A stretch of 42,265 nt of DNA, taken from Bacteroidia bacterium. Lineage in GTDB: Bacteria > Bacteroidota > Bacteroidia > NS11-12g > UBA955. Position 1 is the stretch's first letter; each line of letters starts with the position of its first letter. Below the pieces are notes generated by a model that saw only the letters and a list, made by a program, of their open reading frames with translations, ran no database searches and had not been told where the DNA came from. The stretch lies in NCBI GenBank assembly GCA_030158725.1, contig JAOASJ010000081.1:1-42265 (forward strand), given 5' to 3'. The position numbers and the translations under genes are program-made. This document shows, one piece after another, positions 23,345 to 36,673 of the stretch.

Positions 23345-24295
23345 TTATGCTGCTTCTATTTGATTCTTTACTTTTGCTTCTCTCTTTTCTGCGTATGCAC
23401 TTGCTGCTTCTCTAACCCAAGCTCCATTTTCCCAAGCATCTACTCTGGCTTTTAGTCTTTGTTTGTTGCAAGGTCCATTTCCAGCAACTACTTGGAAAAA
23501 TTCATCCCAATTAATTGTGCCGAAATCATAATGTCCTCTTTCTGCATTCCATTTTAAATCTTTATCTGGAATAGTCAAGCCAAGTATTTCAGTTTGTGCC
23601 ACGGTTACGTCAACAAATTTTTGTCTTAACTCATCGTTGCTGAAACGCTTGATTTTCCATTTCATGCTTTGTGCACTGTTTGGAGAATTGTCGTCATTCG
23701 GACCGAACATCATGATGCTTGGCCACCACCATCTATTTAAAGCATCCTGAGCCATAGCCTTTTGAGCTTCTGTTCCTTTGCTTAAAGTTAACATGATTTC
23801 ATAACCTTGTCTTTGGTGAAAAGATTCTTCTTTACAAACCCTTACCATTGCTCTTGCATAAGGACCATAACTGGTTCTGCACAATGGCACTTGATTCATT
23901 ATCGCAGCGCCATCTACCAACCAACCAATAGCACCCATATCAGCCCAAGTTAATGTTGGGTAATTGAAAATACTGCTGTATTTCGCCTTGCCACTGTGAA
24001 GTTCTTCCAACATTTCATCGCGGCTCATGCCCAAAGTTTCAGCGGCTGAATACAGGTATAAACCATGGCCAGCTTCGTCCTGAACCTTAGCCAATAAAGC
24101 AACTTTACGGCGTAAATTTGGAGCGCGGGTAATCCAATTTCCTTCAGGTAACATTCCAACAATCTCACTGTGAGCGTGTTGGGAAATCTGGCGCAATAAG
24201 GTCTTGCGGTATTTTTCCGGCATCCAATCTCTTGGTTCAATTTTAATCTCTTGATCGATTTTTTCTTGGAATATTTCTTCTAATTTGATTTCCAT
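23345..24295 (-). CDS. paaA: 1,2-phenylacetyl-CoA epoxidase catalytic subunit PaaA
   Basis: The diiron catalytic subunit that epoxidises phenylacetyl-CoA with O2, the committed step of the aerobic phenylacetate pathway. Ferritin-like iron ligand regions are visible in '[18 protein letters not shown]', '[20 protein letters not shown]' (E-x2-H) and '[17 protein letters not shown]' (E-x2-H). Length 316 is normal. Upstream, TAAATTTG on the minus strand gives a candidate promoter and an inverted repeat lies between it and the ATG. The operon is O2-dependent and is divergent from the cbb3 oxidase usp-ccoI operon. Confidence 0.95.
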
Positions 24296-24301
24296 AAGTG
24301 T

Positions 24302-24320
24302 TTATTTTAAAGTAAAATAA
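24302..24320. promoter_or_regulatory. inverted repeat, possible paaABC repressor operator
   Basis: TTATTTTA-aag-TAAAATAA, a perfect 8+8 inverted repeat with a 3-bp spacer, starts 7 bp upstream of the paaA ATG. Relative to the candidate -7 element it would cover about +1 to +20, a classic repressor position. It is AT-rich, so chance is a real alternative. Confidence 0.45.
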
Positions 24321-24325
24321 GATGA

Positions 24326-24360
24326 CAAATTTATAAATAAACAATCCACTTTACAAGTGG
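24326..24360 (-). promoter_or_regulatory. candidate paaA promoter with upstream inverted repeat
   Basis: TAAATTTG on the minus strand (24333-24326) matches the -7 consensus; a TTG (24356-24354) lies 20 bp upstream of it. A second inverted repeat, CCACTT-tac-AAGTGG (24346-24360), overlaps that -33 position and could be a regulator site. Confidence 0.45.
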
Positions 24361-24407: not shown

Positions 24408-24444
24408 ATGACTTAGATCAGTTATTTTAACTGCTCTAAGTCAT
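24408..24444. promoter_or_regulatory. paired Crp/Fnr-like boxes upstream of usp-ccoI
   Basis: A 16-bp inverted repeat with one mismatch and a 5-nt centre. Each arm holds a TGA-N6-TCA-type box: TGACTTAGATCA (24409-24420) and TGCTCTAAGTCA (24432-24443; reverse complement TGACTTAGAGCA). Box centres are 24414.5 and 24437.5. The downstream box is 29.5 bp upstream of the TA of the -7 element, which puts it near -41.5, the class II activator position of Crp/Fnr proteins. Both flanking genes begin here, so a terminator role is excluded. Confidence 0.65.
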
Positions 24445-24466
24445 AAATGTCTTTTTCAATTAGCTA

Positions 24467-24474
24467 TAGTTTTG
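24467..24474 (+). promoter_or_regulatory. -7 element of the usp-ccoI operon
   Basis: TAGTTTTG matches TAnnTTTG, 28 bp before the ATG at 24503. There is no TTTG at the -33 position, as expected for an activator-dependent promoter. Confidence 0.6.
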
Positions 24475-24502
24475 TGCATTAGTATATTTAATCAACAGAA
24501 AT

Positions 24503-25327
24503 ATGAAACCCAATAAAATAGTCTTTGCTGCTCACGATTTTAGCTTGGCGTCTAAAAATGCCATTGAATTAGCTGCCGATTTAGCTTTTAAAACGGGATC
24601 TCGCTTGTTTATTTACCATGTCGTTTCAACTTCTGTACTGGCAGATAGCGAGAATTTATATACCTACAACCCGGAAACTGACATCAAAAAAGCTTCTGCT
24701 CTGATGCGCCGTGGAATTACCTACTTGAAAAAATCAAGACCTGGTATGCAAATCGCTTTTGAAGTCGATTATGGTTTCTTGATTCCAACCATTGCCGATA
24801 AAATTGAGCAATTGGCTCCATGGATTTCTGTTGTAGGGGTTAAAAAAAGAACTGGACTTGACAAAGTTATTTTTGGAGATGTTTGCACCACTTTGATTGG
24901 CAAAATTAAAAGTCCTTTGTTCGTGGTGCCCTTCAATACCAAGTCGCTTAAACTTGACCATATTGCTTATGCATGGGACGGAAAATCAGCTGAAGTACAT
25001 CAATTAATTGCCTTGAAAGAAATGTTGAACAGCAACAATGCAACGATTACTGCCATCAACGTTTCCCACTACGATGAAGCAGTAGAGCGCAATGCAGGTA
25101 ACTTTAAACAAGGACTTAAGAAAATGTTCTCTGCACAAACCACCGATTTAAAACAAATTCAAGGTCTCGACAAAGAGGTTGAGTTTGAAAAGGCCATCAA
25201 AAATATGAAACCTGATTTGTTGGTTGTGTACGCCCACCATTACAATGTTTGGCAAAATTTATTTCATAAACGTTTCTCTAGATACGCACTTAAATTTACC
25301 CAATCTCCAGTCCTTATCGTTTGTTAA
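24503..25327 (+). CDS. universal stress protein in cbb3 operon, two UspA-like halves
   Basis: A 274-residue protein with an N-terminal Usp domain ('KIVFAAHDFSLASKNAIELAADLAFKTGSRLFIYHVV', 'KIKSPLFVVPF' closing it near residue 150) and a second, more diverged half ending 'FTQSPVLIVC'. The ATP-loop G-x2-G-x9-G-S/T is degenerate ('GVKKRTGLDKVIFGDVCTT'), so ATP binding is doubtful. It lies 16 bp ahead of ccoI and under a promoter shared in design with the cbb3 structural operon, so it is probably induced at low oxygen. Its exact role is not known. Confidence 0.83.
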   Translation: MKPNKIVFAAHDFSLASKNAIELAADLAFKTGSRLFIYHVVSTSVLADSENLYTYNPETDIKKASALMRRGITYLKKSRPGMQIAFEVDYGFLIPTIADKIEQLAPWISVVGVKKRTGLDKVIFGDVCTTLIGKIKSPLFVVPFNTKSLKLDHIAYAWDGKSAEVHQLIALKEMLNSNNATITAINVSHYDEAVERNAGNFKQGLKKMFSAQTTDLKQIQGLDKEVEFEKAIKNMKPDLLVVYAHHYNVWQNLFHKRFSRYALKFTQSPVLIVC

Positions 25328-25343
25328 TTTAATTTTTTAAATT

Positions 25344-27779
25344 ATGGAAATTGATCTGAAAGCAGGTGTTTTAACCGAAGGGTTAAATCAATCCAAAGTT
25401 TCAAATATCAAAGAATGCGCCCATTGCGGTTTACCGTGCGACGACCATGTGGTTGTTGAATCTGACTTGACTTTTTGTTGTTCTGGTTGCGCTGCCGTAT
25501 TTACGCTGTTAAACGACAGCAACATGTGCCGTTATTATGAAGATGGTAAAGGTTTAACCCCCGAATCAACGGAAATTGGGGGCCTTGACTTTTTAGATGA
25601 GGCTGAAACCGCCGATAAATTTAAAATCTTTAGCCAAGGCGATACTGTTCAGTACAAATTTCGTATCCCAGGAATGCATTGCAATTCCTGCATATATTTA
25701 TTGGAACGTTTGGATAGATTAAACCAATCGGTCCTTTCTTCTAGGGTAGACTTTTTTAACAAAGAACTTATTGTTACCGTTAAAAATGGTCCGAAAGTTC
25801 TATCAAGTCTTGTTACTTTACTGTTCAGTCTAGGTTACAAACCAGACCTCACTCTGTCGAATAATTCTGGTGCAAACAAAAGTAAATTTTCTCCCCGCGC
25901 CATCAAAATAGGTATCGCTGGTTTTTGCTTCGGCAACATCATGATGCTAAGTTTCCCTGAATACTTAGGTTTGTCGCTCGACGCCTCAAGTATCGTTTTA
26001 AAGCATTGGTTCGATTACATCAGTTTGGCCCTGTCTTTACCTGTCTTGTTTTATTGTTCTTCTGAATTCTTCGAGAGTTCTTACAAAGCCATCAAAACAA
26101 GAACACTGAACATCGACTTGCCAATTACCCTTGCCATCGTTGCTGCATTTGGAAGAAGTTTATACGAACTTTTCGTTATGAACCACTCTGGGTATTTTGA
26201 CAGCATGACGGGTATCGTTTTTTTATTGTTAACAGGAAGGTATTTCCAAGATTTAAGTTACCATTCTTTAACCTTCGACCGCGATTACCGTTCATACTTC
26301 CCATTGTCAGCGCGTTTAATTGTCAATGGCAATTCTCAAGTTGTAAATATCTCTAAGCTTCAAGAAAACGATACCATAGAATTGAGAAATTCTGAATTGC
26401 TTCCTGCTGATGCAATACTAAGTTCTGGAATGGTAACCGTCGACTACAGTTTTATAACTGGTGAATCAAAACCGGTTGCCGTTCAAGAAGGTGAAAAGGT
26501 ATATGCCGGTGCGGTTATAAATGGCCGTTCTGCTCAATTTAAATTGCTGGGCTCTACAGACAATAGCCGTTTGGTTAAATTGTGGGCCATTGAAAAAGAT
26601 AAGTCTGATGTCGACAATTCATTAACTGAAAAGTTGAATTACTACTTTACACTGGGCTTGTTATTGGTTGGTGCATTTGCCTTTATTTACCAATACAATG
26701 TAAACGGATTGGAAGAGGCATTTAAGTCGCTTACCAGTGTGCTCATTGTTGCTTGCCCTTGTATTTTGTTATTGGCTACTACTTTTGCCAATGGCCACTT
26801 ATTAAGAACCTTGAAAAACAATGGCATGTTTGTGAAAAACAAAAACACTTTGAGTCAAATGGCCAAATGCGACACCTTTGTTTTTGATAAAACTGGCACC
26901 CTTACAGACAATAAAGCGTTTGAAGTTGACAATACCACTTCTCTTAATGCTGAAGAGTTGAACATGGTAGGCTTCCTGTGCCACCAATCGGTTCACCCAT
27001 ACAGTGTAGCAATCGCCCATGAATTTTATAAAGTGAATTTTCAATTGGATGCCTACACCGATTTTACCGGTAAAGGTCTTCAAGGCTTAATCAATTCTAA
27101 CCGAATTAAATTGGGCTCTGCACATTTCTTAAAACAAGAGCAAAGCAATATAGGAGAGGGGCAAAGTGCCATACATGTCGAAATTAATGGCGTGTACAAA
27201 GGCAGTTTCTTGCTTACGCATAGAATTAGACCTGAAACCAATGCCGTGTTGCTCGACTTAAAACTACAAGGATATTCTTTGTATTTGTCTAGCGGTGACA
27301 ATGAACTCAATCCGGAAATTAACCACTCTGTTTTTGAAGAAACGTTAATCAAACAACAACCAGAAGACAAGGTTGCTTTGGTTAAGGATTTGAAAAATCA
27401 AGGCAAGGTGGTTTGTATGGCCGGTGATGGTTTAAACGATGCACCTGCACTTAAAGAAGCCGATGTGGCAGTCTCTGTGGCCGATCACGAAAATTCATTC
27501 TTCCCAGCTTGTGATGTATTGCTAACAGCAAATGCATTGGGCAATTTACCTTCATTGATGCAAATGGTTAAAGCCGCAAAATGGGTGGTGATTGTAAGCT
27601 TTGCGTTTTCACTGATTTACAATGTTATTGGTTTGTACTATGCAATTACTGCACAATTGTCGCCATTAACAGCAGCGATATTAATGCCAAGTAGTAGCAT
27701 ATCTATGTTGATTATTACCTGGGTAATGACCAACGTAATGGCCAAATTGATTATTAAAAAAGAACAAATTACAGCGTAA
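25344..27779 (+). CDS. ccoI: CcoI/FixI-type copper-translocating P-type ATPase
   Basis: An 811-residue P1B-type ATPase that supplies copper for cbb3 oxidase assembly. Domain order: N-terminal Cys-rich metal-binding domain ('CAHCGLPC...CCSGC'), an HMA domain with G-M-H-C-N-S-C (copper ligands C113 and C116), membrane helices, the actuator T-G-E-S motif, the in-membrane C-P-C motif (471-473) that selects Cu+, the phosphorylated Asp in D515-K-T-G-T-L-T, the H-P motif ('SVHPYSVAIA') and the hinge 'GDGLNDAPAL'. The N-terminal Cys cluster plus HMA is typical of CcoI/FixI rather than CopA. It is followed by an intrinsic terminator, and the rest of the cco genes begin 0.4 kb downstream. Confidence 0.92.
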   Translation: MEIDLKAGVLTEGLNQSKVSNIKECAHCGLPCDDHVVVESDLTFCCSGCAAVFTLLNDSNMCRYYEDGKGLTPESTEIGGLDFLDEAETADKFKIFSQGDTVQYKFRIPGMHCNSCIYLLERLDRLNQSVLSSRVDFFNKELIVTVKNGPKVLSSLVTLLFSLGYKPDLTLSNNSGANKSKFSPRAIKIGIAGFCFGNIMMLSFPEYLGLSLDASSIVLKHWFDYISLALSLPVLFYCSSEFFESSYKAIKTRTLNIDLPITLAIVAAFGRSLYELFVMNHSGYFDSMTGIVFLLLTGRYFQDLSYHSLTFDRDYRSYFPLSARLIVNGNSQVVNISKLQENDTIELRNSELLPADAILSSGMVTVDYSFITGESKPVAVQEGEKVYAGAVINGRSAQFKLLGSTDNSRLVKLWAIEKDKSDVDNSLTEKLNYYFTLGLLLVGAFAFIYQYNVNGLEEAFKSLTSVLIVACPCILLLATTFANGHLLRTLKNNGMFVKNKNTLSQMAKCDTFVFDKTGTLTDNKAFEVDNTTSLNAEELNMVGFLCHQSVHPYSVAIAHEFYKVNFQLDAYTDFTGKGLQGLINSNRIKLGSAHFLKQEQSNIGEGQSAIHVEINGVYKGSFLLTHRIRPETNAVLLDLKLQGYSLYLSSGDNELNPEINHSVFEETLIKQQPEDKVALVKDLKNQGKVVCMAGDGLNDAPALKEADVAVSVADHENSFFPACDVLLTANALGNLPSLMQMVKAAKWVVIVSFAFSLIYNVIGLYYAITAQLSPLTAAILMPSSSISMLIITWVMTNVMAKLIIKKEQITA

Positions 27780-27825
27780 TTTTTAACCCATTTAGAACTC
27801 ATAATAGCCGCATAAAATTAAGAAT

Positions 27826-27854
27826 AAGGCACATCCGAAAGGATGTGCTTTTTT
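27826..27854 (+). terminator. intrinsic terminator after ccoI
   Basis: GCACATCC (27829-27836), tetraloop GAAA, GGATGTGC (27841-27848), then six T (27849-27854). The stem can be extended by three A/G-T pairs. It ends the usp-ccoI transcript. Confidence 0.9.
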
Positions 27855-28105
27855 GTTGCTTCACAGGTCTATTGCCTTGTTATTCAGGTTTGATTTTTTT
27901 GAGTTTGAAAATAAGATGATGCCGCTTAGTTCTTTTTAGGGTCAAAACTGAATTGTGTGAAATATGTAATTCAGCTTGATTTAAAGTGAATTCTTTTGGA
28001 TGCTTTTAAATGAAAATTAAGCTACAGTTTTATAGGTGCTTACGTTTATAGAATGTGGTTTTTGCTTGATTAGTTATCGATATTTTTTCGAACTACCAAG
28101 GCTTA
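27855..28105. other. AT-rich intergenic stretch between the two cco operons
   Basis: No plausible gene on either strand. It contains a 7-bp inverted repeat with a 13-nt spacer (CTGAATT at 27948-27954, AATTCAG at 27968-27974) of unknown meaning. Only the promoter part beyond about 28106 shows clear structure. Confidence 0.5.
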
Positions 28106-28143
28106 AAACTGACGAGCGTCAGTTTATTATCTGATTCAGGTCA
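28106..28143. promoter_or_regulatory. paired Crp/Fnr-like boxes upstream of ccoS-ccoNO operon
   Basis: The upstream box is a 20-bp inverted repeat, AAACTGACG-ag-CGTCAGTTT (28106-28125), with core TGACGAGCGTCA (28110-28121, centre 28115.5). The downstream box is TGATTCAGGTCA (28132-28143, centre 28137.5). The downstream box lies exactly 29.5 bp upstream of the TA of the -7 element, the same as in the usp-ccoI promoter. A direct repeat CTGATTCA (28131-28138, 28144-28151) overlaps it. The pattern TGA-N6-TCA is that of Crp/Fnr/FixK-type sites. Confidence 0.7.
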
Positions 28144-28166
28144 CTGATTCAAAAAACGCATCTAAA

Positions 28167-28174
28167 TACTTTTG
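28167..28174 (+). promoter_or_regulatory. -7 element of the ccoS operon, close to the start codon
   Basis: TACTTTTG matches TAnnTTTG and is followed by 4 nt and the ccoS ATG at 28179. The predicted transcript start falls on or next to the ATG, so the operon mRNA may be leaderless. There is no TTTG at -33. Confidence 0.6.
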
Positions 28175-28178
28175 AACC

Positions 28179-28346
28179 ATGGAAATCATGATACTTTTAA
28201 TAGGCGCTAGTTTGGTATTAGCCATGTTCTTTTTAATCATGTTTGTCCGTGCTGGAAAGCAAGGACAGTTCCGCGACACTTACACCCCATCTGTTCGAAT
28301 TTTATTCGAGGATGAAGAAACAGAAAATTCAAAAATTTCAAAATAA
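28179..28346 (+). CDS. ccoS: cbb3 oxidase assembly protein CcoS
   Basis: A 55-residue single-span membrane protein: MEIMILLIGASLVLAMFFLI (membrane helix, about 3-23) then a short cytosolic tail with 'GKQGQFRDTYTPSVRILFED', the conserved CcoS pattern (Q-F-D-D/x-x-x-T-P-S-x-R-I-L-F). CcoS is needed to insert cofactors into cbb3 oxidase. The start at 28179 is preferred over an in-frame ATG at 28188 because family members begin 'MEI'-like. It ends 6 bp before ccoNO. Confidence 0.88.
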   Translation: MEIMILLIGASLVLAMFFLIMFVRAGKQGQFRDTYTPSVRILFEDEETENSKISK

Positions 28347-28352
28347 TCAGAT

Positions 28353-30488
28353 ATGAATAAAGAAACCTTCCATTATGACAACAAAATCGTGAAATGGTTT
28401 GCCTATGCGACTATGCTATGGTCGCTTGTGGGCATGCTCGTTGGACTACTAGCAGCATTTCAGCTTGTATTTCCGGTATTAAACTTAGACTTAGCTCAAA
28501 CGAGTTTTGGTCGTATTAGACCAGTTCACACCAACGCCATCATCTTCGCTTTCGTAGGTAATGGTATCTTTATGGGTGTTTACTACTCATTACAACGTTT
28601 GTGTAAAGCACGTATGTTTAGTGATACCTTGAGTAAAATCCATTTCTGGGGCTGGCAATTAATTATTGTTCTTGCAGCAGTAACTTTACTTTCAGGTTTT
28701 ACAACTGGTAAAGAATACGCTGAATTAGAATGGCCAATCGACATCTTAATCGCTCTTATCTGGGTGATCTTTGGATGGAACATGTTTGGTACCATTTTAA
28801 AACGTAGAGAACGTCACTTATATGTAGCCATTTGGTTTTATATCGCAACCTTCGTTACTGTAGCAGTGTTGCACATTGTGAATTCATTCGAGTTGCCATT
28901 TAGTTGGATGAAGTCATATAGCTTCTACGCAGGTATGCAAGACGCCTTGGTACAATGGTGGTATGGTCACAACGCGGTTGCGTTTTTCTTAACCACACCT
29001 TACCTAGGTTTGATGTACTACTTCTTGCCTAAGGCTGCTGACAGACCAGTATATTCTTACAGATTGTCAATTATCCACTTCTGGGCTTTGATTTTCTTAT
29101 ACATCTGGGCTGGTCCTCACCACTTATTATATACTTCATTGCCTGATTGGGCTCAATCTTTAGGTGTTGTTTTCTCTGTTATGTTGATTGCTCCAAGTTG
29201 GGGTGGTATGATTAACGGTTTGTTAACCCTTAGAGGTGTTTGGGATAAAGTAAGAGAAGATGTGGTATTGAAGTTTATGGTAGTTGCAGTTACTGCTTAT
29301 GGTATGGCAACTTTCGAAGGTCCAATGCTTTCTTTTAAAAACGTTAACGCTATTGCCCACTTTACCGATTGGATCGTTGCTCACGTGCACGTTGGTGCTT
29401 TGGGTTGGAACGGTTTCTTAACCTTCGGTATCTTATATTGGTTAATCCCTCGAATTTTCAAAACTGACCTTTACAGCAAAAGCATGGCCAATACCCACTT
29501 CTGGTTAGGTACTCTTGGTATTCTTTTATACGCAATTCCTATGTATTGGGCTGGTTGGACACAAAGTTTAATGTGGAAAGAATTTACTCCAGACGGAACT
29601 TTGAAATACCAATTCCTTGAAACTGTTGTTCAATTAAAACCATTCTACTTATTGCGTTCTATCGGTGGTACTTTGTATTTCCTTGGTGCAATCTTAATGG
29701 TATACAACTTAATTAAAACCATTCGCGCAGGTAAAGCTGTTGATGATGAAGCTGCAGAAGCTGCTCCACTATCTGACAACTACGAGCCTCACCACACTGA
29801 ACACTGGCACCGTTGGGTTGAAAGAAGACCAGTTCAATTATTGGTATTGTCATTGGTAGTTATTTTAATTGGTGGTGCTGTTGAATTTATTCCTTCATTC
29901 TTGATTAAGAGCAATGTGCCTACAATCAGCAGTGTGAAACCATACACGCCACTTGAATTACAAGGTAGAGATATCTATGTCCGTGAAGGTTGTTATACTT
30001 GCCACTCTCAAATGGTTCGTCCATTCAGAAGTGAAACAGCAAGATATGGTGAATACTCTAAAGCTGGAGAATTCGTATACGATCATCCATTCCAATGGGG
30101 TAGTAAACGTACTGGTCCAGACTTAGCAAGAGAAGGTACTCAAAAAATCAGAAAACCAAACTCTTGGCACTTCAACCACATGTATGAGCCACAATCAATC
30201 TCTCCAGGTTCTATCATGCCACGTTACACTTGGTTGTTTGAAAATGATATCGATATGGATATCACTGAAGCAAAAATCAAAGCCATGCAAACGCTTGGTG
30301 TACCTTACGAACAAGGTTACGAGAAAGAAGCCAACAAAGATTTAATGAAACAAGCCAACGAAATCGTAGCTGATCTACAAAAGGAAAACATCAAAGCAAT
30401 GCCTCAAAAAGAAATTATTGCCTTGATTGCTTACCTACAAAGATTGGGAACTGATATCAGCGCTGAACCAACTAATACTCAAAAATAA
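28353..30488 (+). CDS. ccoNO: cbb3-type cytochrome c oxidase fused subunits I and II (CcoN-CcoO)
   Basis: A 711-residue fusion of the catalytic subunit CcoN (about 1-470) and the cytochrome c subunit CcoO (about 500-711). CcoN carries the heme b / b3 and CuB histidines, for example 'VHTNAIIFAFVGNG', 'WWYGHNAVAFF', 'AGPHHLLYTSLPDWAQ' and 'WIVAHVHVGALGWNGF'. CcoO begins with a membrane helix and has one c-type heme site C547-Y-T-C550-H551 ('REGCYTCHSQMVRPFRSE') with the usual 'TGPDLAREG' and an 'SIMPRYTWLF' Met ligand region. The fusion is common in Bacteroidota. The enzyme reduces O2 to water at high affinity and pumps protons in the inner membrane. Confidence 0.95.
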   Translation: MNKETFHYDNKIVKWFAYATMLWSLVGMLVGLLAAFQLVFPVLNLDLAQTSFGRIRPVHTNAIIFAFVGNGIFMGVYYSLQRLCKARMFSDTLSKIHFWGWQLIIVLAAVTLLSGFTTGKEYAELEWPIDILIALIWVIFGWNMFGTILKRRERHLYVAIWFYIATFVTVAVLHIVNSFELPFSWMKSYSFYAGMQDALVQWWYGHNAVAFFLTTPYLGLMYYFLPKAADRPVYSYRLSIIHFWALIFLYIWAGPHHLLYTSLPDWAQSLGVVFSVMLIAPSWGGMINGLLTLRGVWDKVREDVVLKFMVVAVTAYGMATFEGPMLSFKNVNAIAHFTDWIVAHVHVGALGWNGFLTFGILYWLIPRIFKTDLYSKSMANTHFWLGTLGILLYAIPMYWAGWTQSLMWKEFTPDGTLKYQFLETVVQLKPFYLLRSIGGTLYFLGAILMVYNLIKTIRAGKAVDDEAAEAAPLSDNYEPHHTEHWHRWVERRPVQLLVLSLVVILIGGAVEFIPSFLIKSNVPTISSVKPYTPLELQGRDIYVREGCYTCHSQMVRPFRSETARYGEYSKAGEFVYDHPFQWGSKRTGPDLAREGTQKIRKPNSWHFNHMYEPQSISPGSIMPRYTWLFENDIDMDITEAKIKAMQTLGVPYEQGYEKEANKDLMKQANEIVADLQKENIKAMPQKEIIALIAYLQRLGTDISAEPTNTQK

Positions 30489-30665: not shown

Positions 30666-31823
30666 ATGATGAGAACAATCAAATCAATAACCTTCGTCAT
30701 CGCGACCCTTATATCTTTCAATGCGTATTCATTAAGTCCTGCACCTAAAGAAGAATCTGTTGGAAGCAACCCACTTTTCTTAGCCATGGGCATTCTTGCC
30801 GCTGTTTTACTAATGGTTATTATGATTTTATCTGGCGTTCTTAGAACAGCAGTTAAAACAAAAATCCGTGAAATAGTTTCAAGTAAAGGAACCAAAACAC
30901 TTGCATTGCTTATGATGCTTTTTGCATCTGCCAGTGCTTTCGCTCAAGATGCTGCACCTGCAGCTACTGAAAGCATATATGAATCGAGCCCAATTGCTGG
31001 TATGCACCCGCTTGGATTCTATTCATTGTTTGCAGTATTATTACTTGAGTTGTTTGTCATCCTTTGGTTGTGTTTAGTAATTCTTAGAATTATTGTAAAA
31101 CGTGAAGCTGTAGCATCTGAAACTGCTGGTGAAAAAGTGAAAAAAGAATCTTTCTTAACCAATTTCGTTTCTAGAAAATTGTTAGGTGTTAAACCTGTAG
31201 AAAGCGATAAAGATGTAATGCTTGACCACGATTATGATGGTATCAAAGAATTGGACAACGATTTGCCACCATGGTGGAAATACGGTTTCTACTTAACCAT
31301 CGTTTCAGGTATCATTTATCTAATCAGTTACCACGTAACCCACAACTCTAAGTCAAGCTTAGAAGAATACGAATACGAAATGGCGGAAGCTGAAAAAAGT
31401 GTTAACGCTTACAGAGCAACGCTGGCTTCTAATGTTGACGAAACCAATGCAACATTTGCTACTGAAACAGGTAGTATTGATGCCGGTAAAGCTACTTTCG
31501 TTAAGAATTGTGCAGTATGCCACGGAAATGAAGGTCAAGGTTTGGTAGGACCAAACTTCACAGACAAATACTGGGTATATGGCAACAAAGCTGGTGACTT
31601 GTTTAAAATTGTTAAGAATGGTACCAACAAAGGAATGAAAGCTTGGAAAGATGAGCTTAGTCCAGTTGATATCCAAAACGTAATAAGCTATATCCACACT
31701 TTGCAAGGAACAACACCTGCTAATCCTAAAGCACCAGACGGTGTTTTGGTTGAAGATGAAGTTGCTGCAAGCAGTGATTCGACTAGTGTAAAAGATTCTG
31801 TGAAAGTAATTGAAGTAAAATAA
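30666..31823 (+). CDS. ccoP: cbb3 oxidase subunit III, mono-heme CcoP with N-terminal extension
   Basis: A 385-residue membrane-anchored cytochrome c that passes electrons to CcoNO. Layout: an N-terminal extension with several hydrophobic segments (about 5-25, 37-60, 78-93, 114-142), then the CcoP-type anchor 'LPPWWKYGFYLTIVSGIIYLISYHV' (about 197-223), then one cytochrome c domain with C282-A-V-C285-H286 ('NCAVCHGNEGQG'), a distal 'GMKAWK' Met ligand and a low-complexity Ser/Val/Asp tail. Proteobacterial CcoP has two hemes; only one CxxCH is present. The stop overlaps the ccoG start (TAATG). Confidence 0.9.
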   Translation: MMRTIKSITFVIATLISFNAYSLSPAPKEESVGSNPLFLAMGILAAVLLMVIMILSGVLRTAVKTKIREIVSSKGTKTLALLMMLFASASAFAQDAAPAATESIYESSPIAGMHPLGFYSLFAVLLLELFVILWLCLVILRIIVKREAVASETAGEKVKKESFLTNFVSRKLLGVKPVESDKDVMLDHDYDGIKELDNDLPPWWKYGFYLTIVSGIIYLISYHVTHNSKSSLEEYEYEMAEAEKSVNAYRATLASNVDETNATFATETGSIDAGKATFVKNCAVCHGNEGQGLVGPNFTDKYWVYGNKAGDLFKIVKNGTNKGMKAWKDELSPVDIQNVISYIHTLQGTTPANPKAPDGVLVEDEVAASSDSTSVKDSVKVIEVK

Positions 31824-33241
31824 TGAGTTCTGACCCGTTTGAACTTGAACACGTAGATCAATCTTACAGAGACTCTATAGGAACTATAGGTGCCGATGGA
31901 AAACGAAAATGGGTTTTCCCTTGGCAACCTAAAGGTAAATTATACAACTACAGAACCGCCTTATCCATCGTGTATTTGGTGGTTCTGTTTGGTTTGCCCT
32001 TCTTGAAATACAATGGGCATCCTATGTTTCTTTTTAATGTTTTAGAAAGAAAATTCATTCTCTTCGGTGCCATTTTCTGGCCACAAGATTTGGTGATATT
32101 TGGCGTGGCCATGATCACTTTTGTGCTCTTTGTCGTTCTCTTTACCGTTGCCTTCGGACGTGTGTTTTGCGGTTGGGTTTGCCCACAAACTGTTTTTCTT
32201 GAAATGGTGTTTCGCAAAATCGAATACTGGATTGATGGTTCTGCCGCCAATCAAGTAAAACTAAAAAACAGTCCTTGGACCAAAGAGAAAATCTTTAAAA
32301 GAACACTTAAACATACCATATTCTTCCTTTTCGCTTTTCTAATCTCCAATACTTTCTTGGCGTACATGATTAGCGTTGATGGATTGTATAAAATAATCAC
32401 TGAACCAGTTTCCGAACATATTGTAGGCCTCATACTTATTCTAATATTTAGTGGTGTTTACTATTTTGTGTTTGCTTGGTTTAGAGAACAAGTATGTCTT
32501 ATTGCATGTCCTTATGGCAGATTGCAAGGTGTCATGCTCGATAAGAATTCTATCGTTGTGGCATACGATTACAAACGCGGTGAACCACGTGGTCATATCC
32601 ATAAAGGTGAAGACCCTGCTTCAAAAGGCGATTGTATCGACTGCGGTATGTGTGTTAAGGTTTGCCCTACTGCCATCGATATCCGCAACGGTACTCAATT
32701 GGAATGTGTGAACTGCACCGCCTGTATTGATGCCTGCGATGAAGTGATGGAAAAAGTACACAAGCCAAAAAGGCTAATTAAGTTTACCAGCGAAAGTGCC
32801 ATCTCGACAGGAATTTCACATCTTTTCAATTGGAGAACCCGTGCTTACAGTGTGGTACTGATTTTGCTACTTGGTATACTTATAACTTTGATTGCCAGCA
32901 GAAAAAATATCGACACAACCATACTAAGGTCTCCAGGACTATTGTTCCAAAAACCTGACAGCACCCATTACTCTAACCTGTTTTTAATTAAAACCATCAA
33001 TAAAACATATTACGATGCAAATCTTAAAATTGTGGTGGTTGAACCTTCAGAGGCTATTGTGAAAAGCATTGGTCGCGATATTAAAATCAAAGCTGAATCT
33101 AAATACGATGGTCAATTCTTCCTAGTAATACCAAGCAGTCAAATGACTGGTCACAAAACCAAAGTGGTATTGGATATTTACAGGGATGGTGAAAAAATAG
33201 AACGTGTTAAAACCAACTTCCTAGGCCCAATTTATCAATAA
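31823..33241 (+). CDS. ccoG: cbb3 oxidase accessory protein CcoG (FixG/RdxA)
   Basis: A 472-residue membrane protein with polyferredoxin-type iron-sulfur sites, thought to reduce copper for cbb3 assembly. Seen are 'FGRVFCGWVCPQTVFLEM' and 'EQVCLIACPYGRLQG' (C-x3-C-P pairs in the membrane part), two 4Fe-4S clusters starting at C271 ('CIDCGMCVKVCP') and C295 ('CVNCTACIDACD'), and a C-terminal periplasmic Ig-like domain ('NLKIVVVEPSEAIVKSIGRDIKIKAES'). Translationally coupled to both ccoP and ccoH (TAATG on both sides). Confidence 0.94.
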   Translation: MSSDPFELEHVDQSYRDSIGTIGADGKRKWVFPWQPKGKLYNYRTALSIVYLVVLFGLPFLKYNGHPMFLFNVLERKFILFGAIFWPQDLVIFGVAMITFVLFVVLFTVAFGRVFCGWVCPQTVFLEMVFRKIEYWIDGSAANQVKLKNSPWTKEKIFKRTLKHTIFFLFAFLISNTFLAYMISVDGLYKIITEPVSEHIVGLILILIFSGVYYFVFAWFREQVCLIACPYGRLQGVMLDKNSIVVAYDYKRGEPRGHIHKGEDPASKGDCIDCGMCVKVCPTAIDIRNGTQLECVNCTACIDACDEVMEKVHKPKRLIKFTSESAISTGISHLFNWRTRAYSVVLILLLGILITLIASRKNIDTTILRSPGLLFQKPDSTHYSNLFLIKTINKTYYDANLKIVVVEPSEAIVKSIGRDIKIKAESKYDGQFFLVIPSSQMTGHKTKVVLDIYRDGEKIERVKTNFLGPIYQ

Positions 33242-33660
33242 TGAATTTCAAATATTTCATCATAGCCATTTACCTCATTTTTGTTGCCCTCATTGTTACA
33301 ATGGTTTTTAAAAGTTGTGGTCAAAATATAGACCTGGAAACGAAAAACTATTATGCTGAAGAGCTTCAATACCAAACAAAAATTGATGCTTTGAACAAAG
33401 GCAATCAATATGCTGATTCATTTGTTGTATATGAGGATGCGGGCATGATTAAATTAAAACAAGCAAGTTCGTTGGCTTGCGATTCAATAAAACTGGTGTT
33501 TAAAAAACCAGATAATGCAAAAGCCGACAGAAGCTTTGTTTTTAAAGGATCAGTGATTGAGCCAATATCAAAATCTAACTTTGTTCCTGGTGTGTATGGA
33601 TTAAACATTTATCTTTACTCAAAGGACATTTACCAAATCGAGAAAAAAATAAAACTTTAA
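33241..33660 (+). CDS. ccoH: CcoH/FixH family protein
   Basis: A 139-residue single-span membrane protein (helix about 5-25, 'IIAIYLIFVALIVTMVFKSC') with a small periplasmic domain starting 'NIDLETKNYYAEELQYQTKIDALNKG', the FixH pattern. FixH/CcoH takes part in cbb3 maturation. Its ATG overlaps the ccoG stop by one base. Confidence 0.88.
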   Translation: MNFKYFIIAIYLIFVALIVTMVFKSCGQNIDLETKNYYAEELQYQTKIDALNKGNQYADSFVVYEDAGMIKLKQASSLACDSIKLVFKKPDNAKADRSFVFKGSVIEPISKSNFVPGVYGLNIYLYSKDIYQIEKKIKL

Positions 33661-33661
33661 G

Positions 33662-34357
33662 GTGTTAATCAATGGGCTAATATTTGGATTGATTTCAACC
33701 CTGCACTGCGCAGGGATGTGCGGTCCTTTGGCCTTTTATATCCCATCGCAAGTTAAAGGAGACAAGCGTGTTTTTGCGGTCTTATACCAAGTCGGTCGTG
33801 TTTCAATTTATGTTGCCATCGGCTTAATGGTTTATCTACTTGGCATGTCTTTCTCTTTTTTCAAATTGCAACAAACCCTTTCCATAGTTATGGGTAGCCT
33901 AATGGTTATCTATGTGCTATGGCCTTTGTTGAAATTACCGAAAATTCAACTGTTCTCTAATCTCCAAGGCAATGTGCTTAAAAAAATATCTGCAGCAATT
34001 GGTGCAAATAGCAACAAGTCAGCTCTGGGATTAGGCATCATGAATGGTCTATTGCCTTGTGGCGCTATTTATATCGCTGCTCTATACTGTGCAAGTTTTA
34101 ACCAAGTCTCGGATGCCATCATTTATATGGTCTTATTCGGCGTTGGAACTATGCCGGTATTTATCGCTGCTTGGATGTTACTATCTAAGCAGTTTTCATT
34201 TAAAGTAAAACGTTTTACTTTTTTATACAAAGCCTTGCCTTTAATTGTTGGAATATTGATGATACTTAGAGGCGCAAACCTCGGAATACCATACCTAAGC
34301 CCTGAATTAGAGCATAACAACCAAACAGCAACCGTAAAGAATTGCTGTAAACATTAA
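33662..34357 (+). CDS. TauE/SafE (DsbD-2-like) membrane protein of the cbb3 locus
   Basis: A 231-residue, about six-helix membrane protein of the 'sulfite exporter TauE/SafE' / DsbD_2 (UreH-like) group. It opens with the diagnostic 'GLISTLHCAGMCGPLAFYIPS' (H-C-x-G-M-C-G-P), repeats a related turn at 'GIMNGLLPCGAIYIAALY', and ends with 'NCCKH'. The paired cysteines and the Cys-Cys-x-His tail suggest metal (copper) or thiol handling for oxidase assembly, inferred from context. The start is GTG at 33662, one bp after ccoH. This gene regularly sits behind ccoGH in Bacteroidota. Confidence 0.78.
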   Translation: MLINGLIFGLISTLHCAGMCGPLAFYIPSQVKGDKRVFAVLYQVGRVSIYVAIGLMVYLLGMSFSFFKLQQTLSIVMGSLMVIYVLWPLLKLPKIQLFSNLQGNVLKKISAAIGANSNKSALGLGIMNGLLPCGAIYIAALYCASFNQVSDAIIYMVLFGVGTMPVFIAAWMLLSKQFSFKVKRFTFLYKALPLIVGILMILRGANLGIPYLSPELEHNNQTATVKNCCKH

Positions 34358-34361
34358 TTTA

Positions 34362-35597
34362 ATGGAGAATTTAAACCATAACGAAATATTAGAAGGGATG
34401 TTCACTGATGCCACTGAAGGCATTATTGTTAGCAATTCAAAAGGGCAAATTGTAATGGCTAATCCAAAAGCATTGCAGATGTTCGGGTACGACAATGAAA
34501 CGATGTGTTCCTTAATTATAGAAGATTTAGTGCCTTCTCGTTTCTTGCACATGCACAATGAACACCGTTCTAACTACCACCATAACCCTTCTCCGCGCTC
34601 TATGGGTGTTGGAAGAGACTTGTGGGCCAAACGAAAAGATGGTTCTGAATTCCCTATAGAAATTAGTTTAAGTTACGTTAAAGCCACCGATGGTATGTTG
34701 GTGGTTTCTTTTATTATTGACATCACTGAAAGAAAGAAAAAAGACAACGAACTTAGAGAAGCCAATGAGTTGTTAAAGAAGACGAGTTTTCAGTTGTCTA
34801 AACTGAACCAAGACCTCGAACAAAAAGTTCAAGAACGTACTTTAGAGCTTGCTGAAATGATTCGAAAATTAACCGAATCAAAGAAGGAAGTGGATATGGC
34901 CTTGGAAAAAGAACGTGAATTAAACAATTTGAAATCACGTTTTATCAGCACCGCCTCTCACGAATTTAGAACCCCTTTGGCAACCATTATGTCATCGGTT
35001 TCCCTTACCGGTAAATACGCCGAAAGCATGGATAAAAACAGCATGTTCAAGCACATCGATAGGGTGAAAAGTTCAGTGAACCATTTGACCGATATTTTGA
35101 ATGATTTTTTGTCTTTGGATAAACTCGAAGAAGGTGCTGTAATGGCCAATCCTGAGTATTTAGGATTGAATGAATTAATCGGTACCATTACCGAAGAAAT
35201 AAAGTCAATTGCCAAAGCCGGTCAACGCATTAGCTTTACCGGACTTTTGGGAAATGATCAGATTTTTATTGACAAAAGGATATTAAAGAACATTATGCTA
35301 AACTTGATTAGCAATGCCATTAAATATTCAAATGAAAACACCAATATCGACATCAAATTGGCAAAGGATTCAAACACCTTAACAATTGAAATAAAAGACC
35401 AAGGCATAGGTATTCCTTTGGAAGATCAGCCCCATATTTTTGAACGTTTCTACCGCGCCAACAACAGTGGCAATATGCAAGGAACAGGCCTAGGCTTAAA
35501 CATCGTTAAAAAATATGTTGAGATATTAAAAGGCGATATCCAATTCAAAAGTGTTCCTGAAAAAGGAACCAAATTCACACTTAAATTTCCAGTATAG
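34362..35597 (+). CDS. PAS-domain sensor histidine kinase, FixL-like
   Basis: A 411-residue cytosolic kinase without membrane segments. PAS domain (about 5-124), coiled coil (about 125-190), HisKA with phospho-acceptor H200 in 'STASHEFRTPL', and HATPase (about 300-411) with N-box 'NLISNAIKYS', 'DQGIGIP' and 'GTGLGLNIVKKY'. The PAS region 'VPSRFLHMHNEHRSNY...MGVGRDLWAKRKDGSEFP' aligns without gaps, from memory, to the heme-PAS of rhizobial FixL; H65 falls on the heme-ligating His and R85 on the distal Arg. Heme binding is not proven, since related non-heme PAS domains share parts of this pattern. It sits 4 bp behind the cbb3 assembly genes and 14 bp before a response regulator. Confidence 0.88.
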   Translation: MENLNHNEILEGMFTDATEGIIVSNSKGQIVMANPKALQMFGYDNETMCSLIIEDLVPSRFLHMHNEHRSNYHHNPSPRSMGVGRDLWAKRKDGSEFPIEISLSYVKATDGMLVVSFIIDITERKKKDNELREANELLKKTSFQLSKLNQDLEQKVQERTLELAEMIRKLTESKKEVDMALEKERELNNLKSRFISTASHEFRTPLATIMSSVSLTGKYAESMDKNSMFKHIDRVKSSVNHLTDILNDFLSLDKLEEGAVMANPEYLGLNELIGTITEEIKSIAKAGQRISFTGLLGNDQIFIDKRILKNIMLNLISNAIKYSNENTNIDIKLAKDSNTLTIEIKDQGIGIPLEDQPHIFERFYRANNSGNMQGTGLGLNIVKKYVEILKGDIQFKSVPEKGTKFTLKFPV

Positions 35598-35611: not shown

Positions 35612-36673
35612 ATGGCACATATATTATTAATTGAAGACAATGAAAACATGAGGGAAAACACCTCAGAGATTTTAACTTTAGCTGGCCATCAGGTCGAATC
35701 TGCTAGCAATGGCAAGGAGGGCGTGATTAAAGTTCAATTAAATAAACCAGATTTAATCATTTGCGATATCATGATGCCAGAATTGGATGGTTATGGTGTA
35801 TTGCACATGCTCAATAGAGACCCAAACACCAACCAAATTCCATTCATCTTTTTAACCGCAAAGGCCGATCGCTCAGATGTGCGCAAAGGCATGGAGCTAG
35901 GGGCCGACGATTATGTAACCAAGCCATTCGACGATGTTGAATTGCTGGCTGCTGTCGATACCCGTTTGAAGAAGTCAAGTTTGTTGACTGGTCAAAACTT
36001 CGCCCATAACTCTGAAGGATTCGATCATTTTATCCGCCAGGTAAAATCGATAGAAGAGTTTGCCCGCGTTGACGCCAACGCCCGCAACAAACAATACAAA
36101 AAGAAAGACATTATATATTCTGAAAGCAATACCCCTTTGTATTTATACCTGATTGAAAAAGGGAAGGTAAAGACGGTTAAAAACAACCGCCAAGACAAAG
36201 AGCTAATCACTGGCCTGTACAATGAAGGCGACTTCTTTGGCTACATCGCCTTGCTTGAGGACAATGTGTACGAGGACGAGGCTATAGCGATGGAAGAAAC
36301 CCGTTTGAAATTGATTCCTAAAGACGATTTTTACAAATTGATTTACCAAAATAGGGAAGTGGCCAACACCTTTATGAAGCTATTAAGCAAGGAAGTAAAG
36401 GAAAAGGAAGAACGTCTATTGAAAATAGCTTACGACAGCGTAAGAAAGAAAGTATCTGAAAGTTTAATGATGCTAAAAGACCGTTATGGAAATGAAGGCA
36501 GTGATGTGTTTAGTTTTCCAATTAGCAGAGAAGACCTAGCCCACATTGCTGGAACTGCTACAGAGACGCTTATAAGGACGCTGACAGACTTTAAAGAAGA
36601 AGGTCTGATAGAGATTAAAGGCAGCACCATTACCATCGTCGACGCGAATAAGTTGCGTTCGATGAAGAATTAG
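35612..36673 (+). CDS. response regulator fused to Crp/Fnr-type DNA-binding protein (FixJK-like)
   Basis: A 353-residue fusion. Receiver domain 1-122: acidic E8-D9, phospho-acceptor D52 ('ICDIMMPELDGYG'), T82 and K104. After a linker comes a cyclic-nucleotide-binding-like sensor domain (about 145-260, 'YSESNTPLYLYLIEKGKVK', 'YNEGDFFGYIALLED') that lacks the Arg/Ser pocket of cAMP-binding Crp, and a Crp-type winged helix (about 275-345). The recognition helix 'GTATETLIRTLTDFKEEGLIE' keeps E318 and R322, the positions that read TGA half-sites in Crp/Fnr. There is no Fnr-type cysteine cluster, so phosphorylation is the probable signal. Likely partner: the kinase 14 bp upstream. Confidence 0.9.
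   Translation: MAHILLIEDNENMRENTSEILTLAGHQVESASNGKEGVIKVQLNKPDLIICDIMMPELDGYGVLHMLNRDPNTNQIPFIFLTAKADRSDVRKGMELGADDYVTKPFDDVELLAAVDTRLKKSSLLTGQNFAHNSEGFDHFIRQVKSIEEFARVDANARNKQYKKKDIIYSESNTPLYLYLIEKGKVKTVKNNRQDKELITGLYNEGDFFGYIALLEDNVYEDEAIAMEETRLKLIPKDDFYKLIYQNREVANTFMKLLSKEVKEKEERLLKIAYDSVRKKVSESLMMLKDRYGNEGSDVFSFPISREDLAHIAGTATETLIRTLTDFKEEGLIEIKGSTITIVDANKLRSMKN

Follow-up and report, generated by a model that had tools for sequence, protein, structure and literature searches.

Two paired-box promoters in a cbb3 oxidase gene cluster

We analyzed a 42,265-nucleotide stretch of DNA from a Bacteroidia bacterium (contig JAOASJ010000081.1 of assembly GCA_030158725.1; hereafter, the window), whose forward strand carries a cluster of cco genes for a cbb3-type cytochrome oxidase and two promoters, before usp-ccoI and before ccoS-ccoNO, each with a pair of Crp/Fnr-type boxes. 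The first gene before ccoI is usp (24503 to 25327; universal stress protein, Pfam PF00582); ccoI itself (25344 to 27779) encodes the P-type ATPase of cbb3 assembly and was assigned from P-type ATPase models and from its position next to ccoS. The second group comprises ccoS (28179 to 28346; Pfam FixS), ccoNO (28353 to 30488; a fusion of cbb3 subunits I and II, scoring above the cut-off of NCBIfam NF011053), ccoP (30666 to 31823; FixP_N and Cytochrome_CBB3), ccoG (31823 to 33241; FixG_C and Fer4_18), a putative ccoH/fixH named by position and with matches in many cco loci (33241 to 33660), and a gene for a DsbD_2-type cytochrome c biogenesis membrane protein (33662 to 34357; PF13386). These are followed by genes for a histidine kinase with a FixL-like PAS domain (34362 to 35597; PAS-HisKA-HATPase) and for a fusion of a receiver domain to a Crp-type protein (35612 to 36673; REC, cNMP fold, and HTH_Crp; hereafter, REC-Crp), the proposed activator.

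A first-pass annotation of the window had described two TGA-N6-TCA-like boxes at each promoter, and we found them there, with their centers 23 bp apart at usp-ccoI and 22 bp apart at ccoS. At usp-ccoI, the upstream box TGACTTAGATCA (24409 to 24420) lies at about −64.5, and the downstream box TGCTCTAAGTCA (24432 to 24443), which has a degenerate left half, at −41.5; four relatives (L114, L115, L116, and L119) retain the TGA/TCA of the former and the right-half GTCA of the latter. The −7 element TAGTTTTG (24467 to 24474) gives a predicted transcript start at 24479. At ccoS, the upstream box TGACGAGCGTCA (28110 to 28121; −63.5), the downstream box TGATTCAGGTCA (28132 to 28143; −41.5), and the −7 element TACTTTTG (28167 to 28174) give a predicted start at 28179, the A of the ccoS ATG. 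As the annotation had it, the center of the downstream box lies 29.5 bp before the TA of a TAnnTTTG element in both promoters, the box ending 23 nucleotides (nt) before the TA. The position of −41.5 likewise holds for these predicted starts, by the −7 numbering of Flavobacterium psychrophilum, which places the TAnnTTTG box at −12 to −5 (PMC9723704).

Other parts of the annotation stood less firmly. The absence of a TTTG at −33, taken there as a sign of activator dependence, is real, none of the 66 modules described below having a TTTG that starts 0 to 6 nt past the box, but it says little, since the space where such a TTTG would lie is taken up by the box. Two inverted repeats do exist, a 37-bp one formed by the usp-ccoI box pair (24408 to 24444; 16 of 17 arm positions paired) and a 20-bp one centered on the upstream ccoS box (28107 to 28126; 9 of 10), but they are not conserved, and we judged the longer one incidental. 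The estimate of about ten chance TGA-N6-TCA cores in the window was slightly low, with 15.5 expected and 16 found. When at most one mismatch was allowed, a box followed at 23 nt by TAnnTTTG occurred twice in the window against 0.74 expected (equalled by 19 of 100 shuffles), and a single 23-bp box pair was found where 0.24 would be expected, a count that 24 of 100 shuffles also reached. The matched spacing, which had been offered together with the shared function as the real evidence, is nonsignificant inside the window; with counts so near expectation, we dismissed a case built on the window alone as too weak, and it is conservation in relatives that carries it.

Conservation and exact spacing of the module in relatives

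We examined 108 stretches selected by CcoNO, mostly from Bacteroidota, several of which are closely related and therefore partly nonindependent. They comprise all 80 CcoNO loci from named genomes among the matches listed, the window itself, six relatives from the genus, and 21 loci from L182 to L203, where L202 was dropped for its cut CcoNO. Repeats of included loci (L174 to L181, and L125, which repeats L010) were omitted. We defined the module as box, center spacing of 22 or 23 bp, box, 23 nt, and TAnnTTTG, with 18 fixed bases in all. Within the 260 nt before ccoS, or before ccoN if no ccoS was found, 66 of the 108 regions held a complete module that deviated at no more than 2 of the 18 bases, none deviated at 3 or 4, and the remaining 42 were at least 5 off; when each region was shuffled 50 times under a Markov-1 model (5,400 shuffles), a fraction of about 0.0002 reached 2 or fewer. 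Conservation in orthologous promoters had been set beforehand as one test on which the annotation could fail, and the outcome spoke strongly for the annotation: the module was found at the ccoS/ccoN promoter, the ccoI promoter, or both in 86 of the 108 stretches: 40 had it before both ccoI (or the gene preceding it) and ccoS/ccoN, 41 before ccoS/ccoN only, and 5 before ccoI only.

The spacing is exact. Scanning both strands of the 108 full stretches yielded 202 modules at the real spacing, against 1 to 17 at other box spacings (12 to 35), 1 to 10 at other gaps (13 to 35), and 0 or 1 with six scrambled boxes. Exact matches numbered 75 at the real spacing against none at the others, save for 4 at a gap of 24. 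Among exact box pairs 15 to 40 bp apart in the 220 nt before ccoS/ccoN of 87 stretches, 43 were at 22 bp, 3 at 23 bp, and none elsewhere; the random-slice background for this count contains real promoters and is hence inflated. Seven Sphingobacteriaceae stretches and one from Flavobacteriaceae carry the module directly before ccoN with one or two mismatches. Four of the ccoS/ccoN regions scored as misses keep a pair, exact and at 22 bp in L021, L072, and L078, and with one mismatch and a 24-nt gap in L120.

Predicted leaderless transcript of ccoS

The −7 element of ccoS ends 4 nt before the start codon (28167 to 28181), and the transcript is therefore predicted to be leaderless. This geometry recurs in 6 of the 66 modules (the window, L114, L115, L116, L118, and L121); the leaders of the other 60 are 12 to 25 nt (46 cases), 4 to 6 nt (9 cases), or 91 to 164 nt (5 cases). 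The first start-like codon 4 nt past the −7 element is ATG in the genus, GTG in L120 (with its 24-nt box gap), and TTG in L121. Translation may instead begin at 28188, where a second ATG lies in frame and the leader would be 9 nt long, and this applies most to L120 and L121 with their GTG and TTG, but the codon aligned with 28179 is ATG, GTG, or TTG in 103 of 104 CcoS matches, the window included, which favors the upstream start. The same geometry occurs at single-box promoters on contigs C25 and C119 of the window's own genome. Leaderless transcripts make up 5.5% of those measured in F. psychrophilum (PMC9723704).

The receiver-Crp fusion and its partner kinase

The product of 35612 to 36673 matches the Pfam models Response_reg (E value, 3e-29), cNMP_binding, and HTH_Crp. 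Its orthologs conserve the phospho-acceptor motif D(I/V/N)xMP in 50 of 51 distinct proteins. We did not find in it the N-terminal cluster of iron-sulfur (Fe-S) cysteines that is the hallmark of Fnr; its single cysteine, C51, lies beside the receiver aspartate, and no CxxC occurs in the first 70 residues of any of the 51 distinct REC-Crp proteins. By eye, the conserved arginine of the cNMP phosphate cassette also seems absent. The FixK model NF050806 covers only residues 150 to 351 and scores 75.5 bits against a cut-off of 300, and there is no separate arrangement of FixJ and a receiver-free FixK here, the REC and Crp domains being joined in one protein. The recognition helix has the form GTATE[ST]xIR in 33 of the 51 distinct proteins; variants include GTAKETTIR and, in REC-Crp proteins of Sphingobacteriaceae, endings in TVSR. 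REC-Crp is a plausible activator of the two promoters because a protein with receiver, cNMP fold, and HTH_Crp adjoins a PAS histidine kinase.

The PAS domain of that kinase matches FixL structures with an E value of 4e-11, and its H65 and R85 align with the heme histidine and the arginine of FixL. Of 73 stretches with a REC-Crp gene, which are redundant and partly short, 61 have a PAS match no more than about 3 kb away from that gene; the partner kinases were located with the PAS domain of the window and are thus biased toward it. The heme-histidine column is H in 38 of 43 different partner kinases, and those of Pedobacter have FixL-like motifs, e.g., MPEPD..HDGY..GREV.

We observed separately that five stretches of genus g8, which belongs to the family of the window (L096, L097, L099, L100, and L101), have REC-Crp and no close CcoNO, and that the heme-histidine motif is absent from the kinases of L097, L099, and L100 and kept in that of L096. 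In g8, the REC-Crp system seems to be used for something else.

Two regulator types at cbb3 loci with the module

Stand-alone Crp proteins occur at the cbb3 loci of other relatives. Eighteen of the 20 at L004 to L083 have an N-terminal CxxC, the exceptions being that of L033 and a fragment at a contig edge; the CxxC regulators carry further cysteines, ten of them in the form CxxC-x8-C, and 13 of the 20 proteins have the GTATE[ST]xIR helix. The module was present at a cco promoter in 31 of 33 stretches with only REC-Crp in view, in 17 of 18 with only an Fe-S-type regulator in view (a label that here stands for a CxxC near the N terminus), in 4 of 4 with other or mixed regulators, and in 34 of 53 with no regulator in view.

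The two types are distributed apart within the family of the window: of 59 genomes, 22 have a REC-Crp match over nearly its full length (E values of 7e-84 or better), 17 have a close Fe-S Fnr type (2e-66 or better), none has both, and 20 have neither, by cut-offs chosen after viewing the lists. Weaker Fnr-like proteins, 35 to 40% identical, occur in three REC-Crp genomes (G047, G008, and G012); that of G047 has the cysteines and a different helix. The Fe-S genera g3, g4, g5, g6, and g10 have the module in 11 of the 13 stretches used, with the TA of the −7 element mostly replaced by TC or GA. In a tree of 76 Crp parts, 25 Fe-S proteins and two others are split from the REC-Crp proteins by a branch with values of 98/96, and the long row L003 falls among the REC-Crp proteins. 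Each regulator label needs two changes on this tree, and no bootstrap tree gives one; a single origin of the fusion may be compatible with the starred branches. From the sequences, we infer that in relatives without REC-Crp the same sites are used by an Fnr-type Fe-S protein whose recognition helix is similar, and these data together suggest a change of regulator at a promoter that was retained.

The module at other genes and in the own genome

The genes behind 26 inspected module places include those for Usp, CcoG, a FixL-like kinase, ferrochelatase, and a cytochrome c, and several others with no assigned function or no evident link. The genes named here are of the kinds commonly found in Fnr/FixK regulons. 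One further protein behind a module looked HemN-like by eye, and a Pfam scan of its first 90 residues returned no HemN model. Two families of small proteins, seen behind single-box promoters on own-genome contigs C25 and C46 and without any Pfam or NCBIfam match, recur near REC-Crp or cbb3 genes, with the full module in some loci and none found in many. Members of the first, of about 120 to 137 amino acids (aa), are found in L165 (on C25), L010, L016, L029, L039, L057, and L123, often with REC-Crp genes and in several loci, such as L010, L016, and L123, behind a module promoter; the second lies behind single-box promoters in L167 (on C46), L158, and L162 and is behind paired boxes in L213, L228, and L033. 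A box TGACCATTATCA placed 23 nt before TAATTTTG is kept upstream of a gene that by eye is MBL-fold/rhodanese-like in four members of the genus (L168, L171, L172, and L173).

In 17 genomes of the genus, the gap between TGACNNNNGTCA and TAnnTTTG, scanned from 8 to 38 nt, peaks at 23 (23 of 54 matches), and the remaining genera of the family have 24 of 63 matches there; in a second, related family, f2, the peak at 23 is weak (6 of 46) and exceeded by that at 27 (9 of 46), some of these matches being near-identical orthologs. The own genome contains seven single TGA-N6-TCA boxes at a gap of 23, before ccoS and six other genes, and four paired modules with at most two mismatches, that of ccoS at 22 bp and the other three at 23 bp. 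The idea that box pairs are exclusive to the cbb3 promoters of this genome was rejected because the 23-bp scan gave two more places; the box pair is rare in the own genome yet not confined to cbb3 genes. We did not rely on a reversed-pattern control (130 forward and reverse matches against 7 in 17 genomes) because reversing also destroys the promoter element, and the spacing controls were used instead. A scan of the own genome with TTGANNNNNNTCAA gave 186 places, and the same scan with the pattern reversed gave 61. With two mismatches allowed, G047, a genome listed in the genus, has 38 module matches against 0 to 6 in its neighbors; it also has REC-Crp genes on several contigs and may be more distant or mixed.

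The usp boxes of the window sit between usp and a divergent paaA gene (23345 to 24295). On the minus strand, TAAATTTG (24326 to 24333, located by eye; region, 24320 to 24335) may be the paaA promoter, in which case the usp boxes would lie about 90 to 115 bp upstream of the paaA start. The phenylacetate genes may belong to the same regulon.

Proposed mechanism and alternatives

We consider it likely, on sequence evidence, that the two promoters are class II activator-dependent promoters with tandem sites, that REC-Crp at 35612 to 36673 is switched by the PAS kinase to act on them, and that an Fnr-type protein uses the same sites in relatives. Each promoter would offer two dimer sites to one activator of the Crp/Fnr family. 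The protein bound at −41.5 would touch RNA polymerase, and the second site, about two helical turns upstream and on the same face, would favor cooperative binding; the activator site would replace the −33 element, and the genes for cbb3 subunits and assembly would be switched on together. The most likely activator is REC-Crp, which lacks the Fe-S cysteines and would bind the boxes once phosphorylated by the adjacent kinase (34362 to 35597). Low oxygen, presumably sensed through heme, would leave the kinase active, and phosphorylated REC-Crp would then turn on cbb3 transcription in one step, the functions of FixL, FixJ, and FixK being collapsed into two proteins.

Several observations weigh against this reading. 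Twenty of the 108 stretches have no module and two have it only away from cco genes, and L192 and L193, from Fe-S genomes, have just a single exact box, separated from the −7 element by 34 nt. Ten of the 20 module-less stretches (L191 to L200) offer only about 1.5 kb upstream, and in several of them the operon promoter may lie outside because ccoI or another gene directly precedes ccoS. The three TGACNNNNGTCA-to-TAnnTTTG matches of the own genome are at gaps of 17, 25, and 30, none at 23. Two of its paired modules, both at 23 bp with one mismatch, lie elsewhere: one is 11 nt before a second paaA-like gene (L235, 1 to 2117, contig C109), behind which we noted genes that by eye resemble paaB and paaC, and the other precedes the gene for a 230-aa protein of no assigned family (L234, 490 to 1276, contig C57), whose N-terminal start resembles that of proteins secreted or placed in the outer membrane. 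In genus g8, REC-Crp is present although no close CcoNO is, and in G033, G036, and G044 it lies on a different contig from ccoNO; G047 has both regulator types. For 12 of the 73 REC-Crp stretches, several of them short, a search of about 3 kb around the gene gave no match to the PAS kinase. In the PDB, the PAS domain of the kinase has its best match (E value, 9e-16) in another multisensor kinase rather than FixL, and the FixL arginine column is R in only 21 of the 43 partner kinases and M in 9. Finally, the genome encodes two further HTH_Crp proteins, which could bind similar sites.

Two alternatives keep the promoter module. We think it rather unlikely, though the stronger of the two, that REC-Crp is the activator and its kinase senses something other than oxygen by heme, such as redox state, NO, or a metabolite: roughly half of the partner kinases have another residue in place of the FixL arginine, the histidine is not shown in 5 of the 43 (one of them a gap), and heme binding is unreadable from sequence alone, but the histidine is kept in the great majority, the Pedobacter partners are near FixL in motif, and the target is a high-affinity oxidase. 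A role for a different Crp-family protein, encoded on contig C38 or C6, as the activator here, with the linked REC-Crp controlling other genes, appears unlikely. Three HTH_Crp_2 proteins are present in the genome, single-box class II sites also precede genes without an obvious low-oxygen tie, and the recognition helices of the C38 and C6 proteins (NSSREVISR and LRVETVIR) both keep the glutamate and arginine expected to read TGA. Of these proteins, however, only REC-Crp sits in the cco cluster; the GTATE[ST]xIR helix type is the commonest among the cbb3-linked regulators seen, stand-alone or REC; and nearly all REC-Crp-only stretches, in the count given above, have the module at cco promoters.

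Two other alternatives would do away with the module itself. The inverted repeats might be the functional unit, as a hairpin or as the operator of another dimeric regulator, the likeness to Crp/Fnr sites being incidental, and at the usp promoter the repeat is nearly perfect in the window. We tried and rejected this idea, which is very improbable: of the 17 arm positions, 16 pair in the window and only 12 in L114 and L115, its two closest relatives, where TGA/TCA and the spacing are kept; the repeat is not apparent by eye in L116, which also retains boxes and spacing, and it lies upstream of the predicted usp start. Decay of the 37-bp repeat across relatives largely refutes the idea. That two AT-rich upstream regions resemble each other by chance would fit the window-only counts, but conservation and exact spacing across the 108 stretches refute this, and we regard its likelihood as negligible.

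Relation to known systems and significance

Class II tandem promoters of Escherichia coli CRP and FNR likewise have a site at −41.5 and a second about two turns upstream, and need no −35 (here, −33) element; they differ in having a TATAAT rather than a TAnnTTTG −7 element, and here the pair spacing is almost always 22 bp. The TGA-N6-TCA box also lacks the outer TT/AA of the E. coli FNR site. Like the Fnr of Proteobacteria, 18 of the 20 stand-alone regulators at L004 to L083 have the N-terminal CxxC and further cysteines described above; the regulator of the window, in contrast, has a receiver domain instead.

The closest parallel is the alphaproteobacterial control of fixNOQP/cco by FixLJ-FixK or FnrN, in which oxygen is sensed by the FixL two-component system or by the Fe-S protein FnrN and acts through Crp/Fnr proteins; the FixL system and FnrN can substitute for each other in Caulobacteriales (PMC4999443). 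Here, unlike in Alphaproteobacteria, the receiver is on the Crp protein itself, with neither a separate FixJ nor a transcriptional step to FixK, and the phylum and the promoter type are different. In F. psychrophilum, as in the Bacteroidota studied here, promoters are of the TAnnTTTG type, and the cbb3 oxidase is strongly up at low oxygen; the terms Crp and Fnr are absent from the main text of that study (PMC9723704). Crp/Fnr homologs of Flavobacteriales, Saprospiraceae, and Ignavibacteria have been predicted to be carbon sensing (PMC8510549), a prediction that may be worth revisiting in light of the Fe-S type reported above. We found no description of a receiver-Crp fusion at cbb3 genes or of the promoter pair in the open-license literature searched, which does not prove that none exists.

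Low-oxygen sensing by Bacteroidota seems to have been little studied; our literature searches found little on it. We are evenly divided on whether the module represents a widespread cbb3 promoter code of Bacteroidota, in which TGA-N6-TCA boxes at −41.5 and −63.5, with a spacing of 22 bp, stand over TAnnTTTG and would be read by exchangeable oxygen sensors, either an Fe-S Fnr-type protein or a FixL-like heme kinase phosphorylating a receiver-Crp fusion (FixJ and FixK in one), one having replaced the other while the promoters stayed unchanged. A conserved, exactly spaced code for a high-affinity oxidase makes its regulon predictable from sequence, with two regulator types named, and its presence before two small families that lack Pfam and NCBIfam models suggests that this response includes genes still unstudied. 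If true, the swap, in which a two-component REC-Crp system takes over from a one-component Fe-S sensor on the same promoters, would offer a clear case in nature of regulator replacement with the cis sites fixed.

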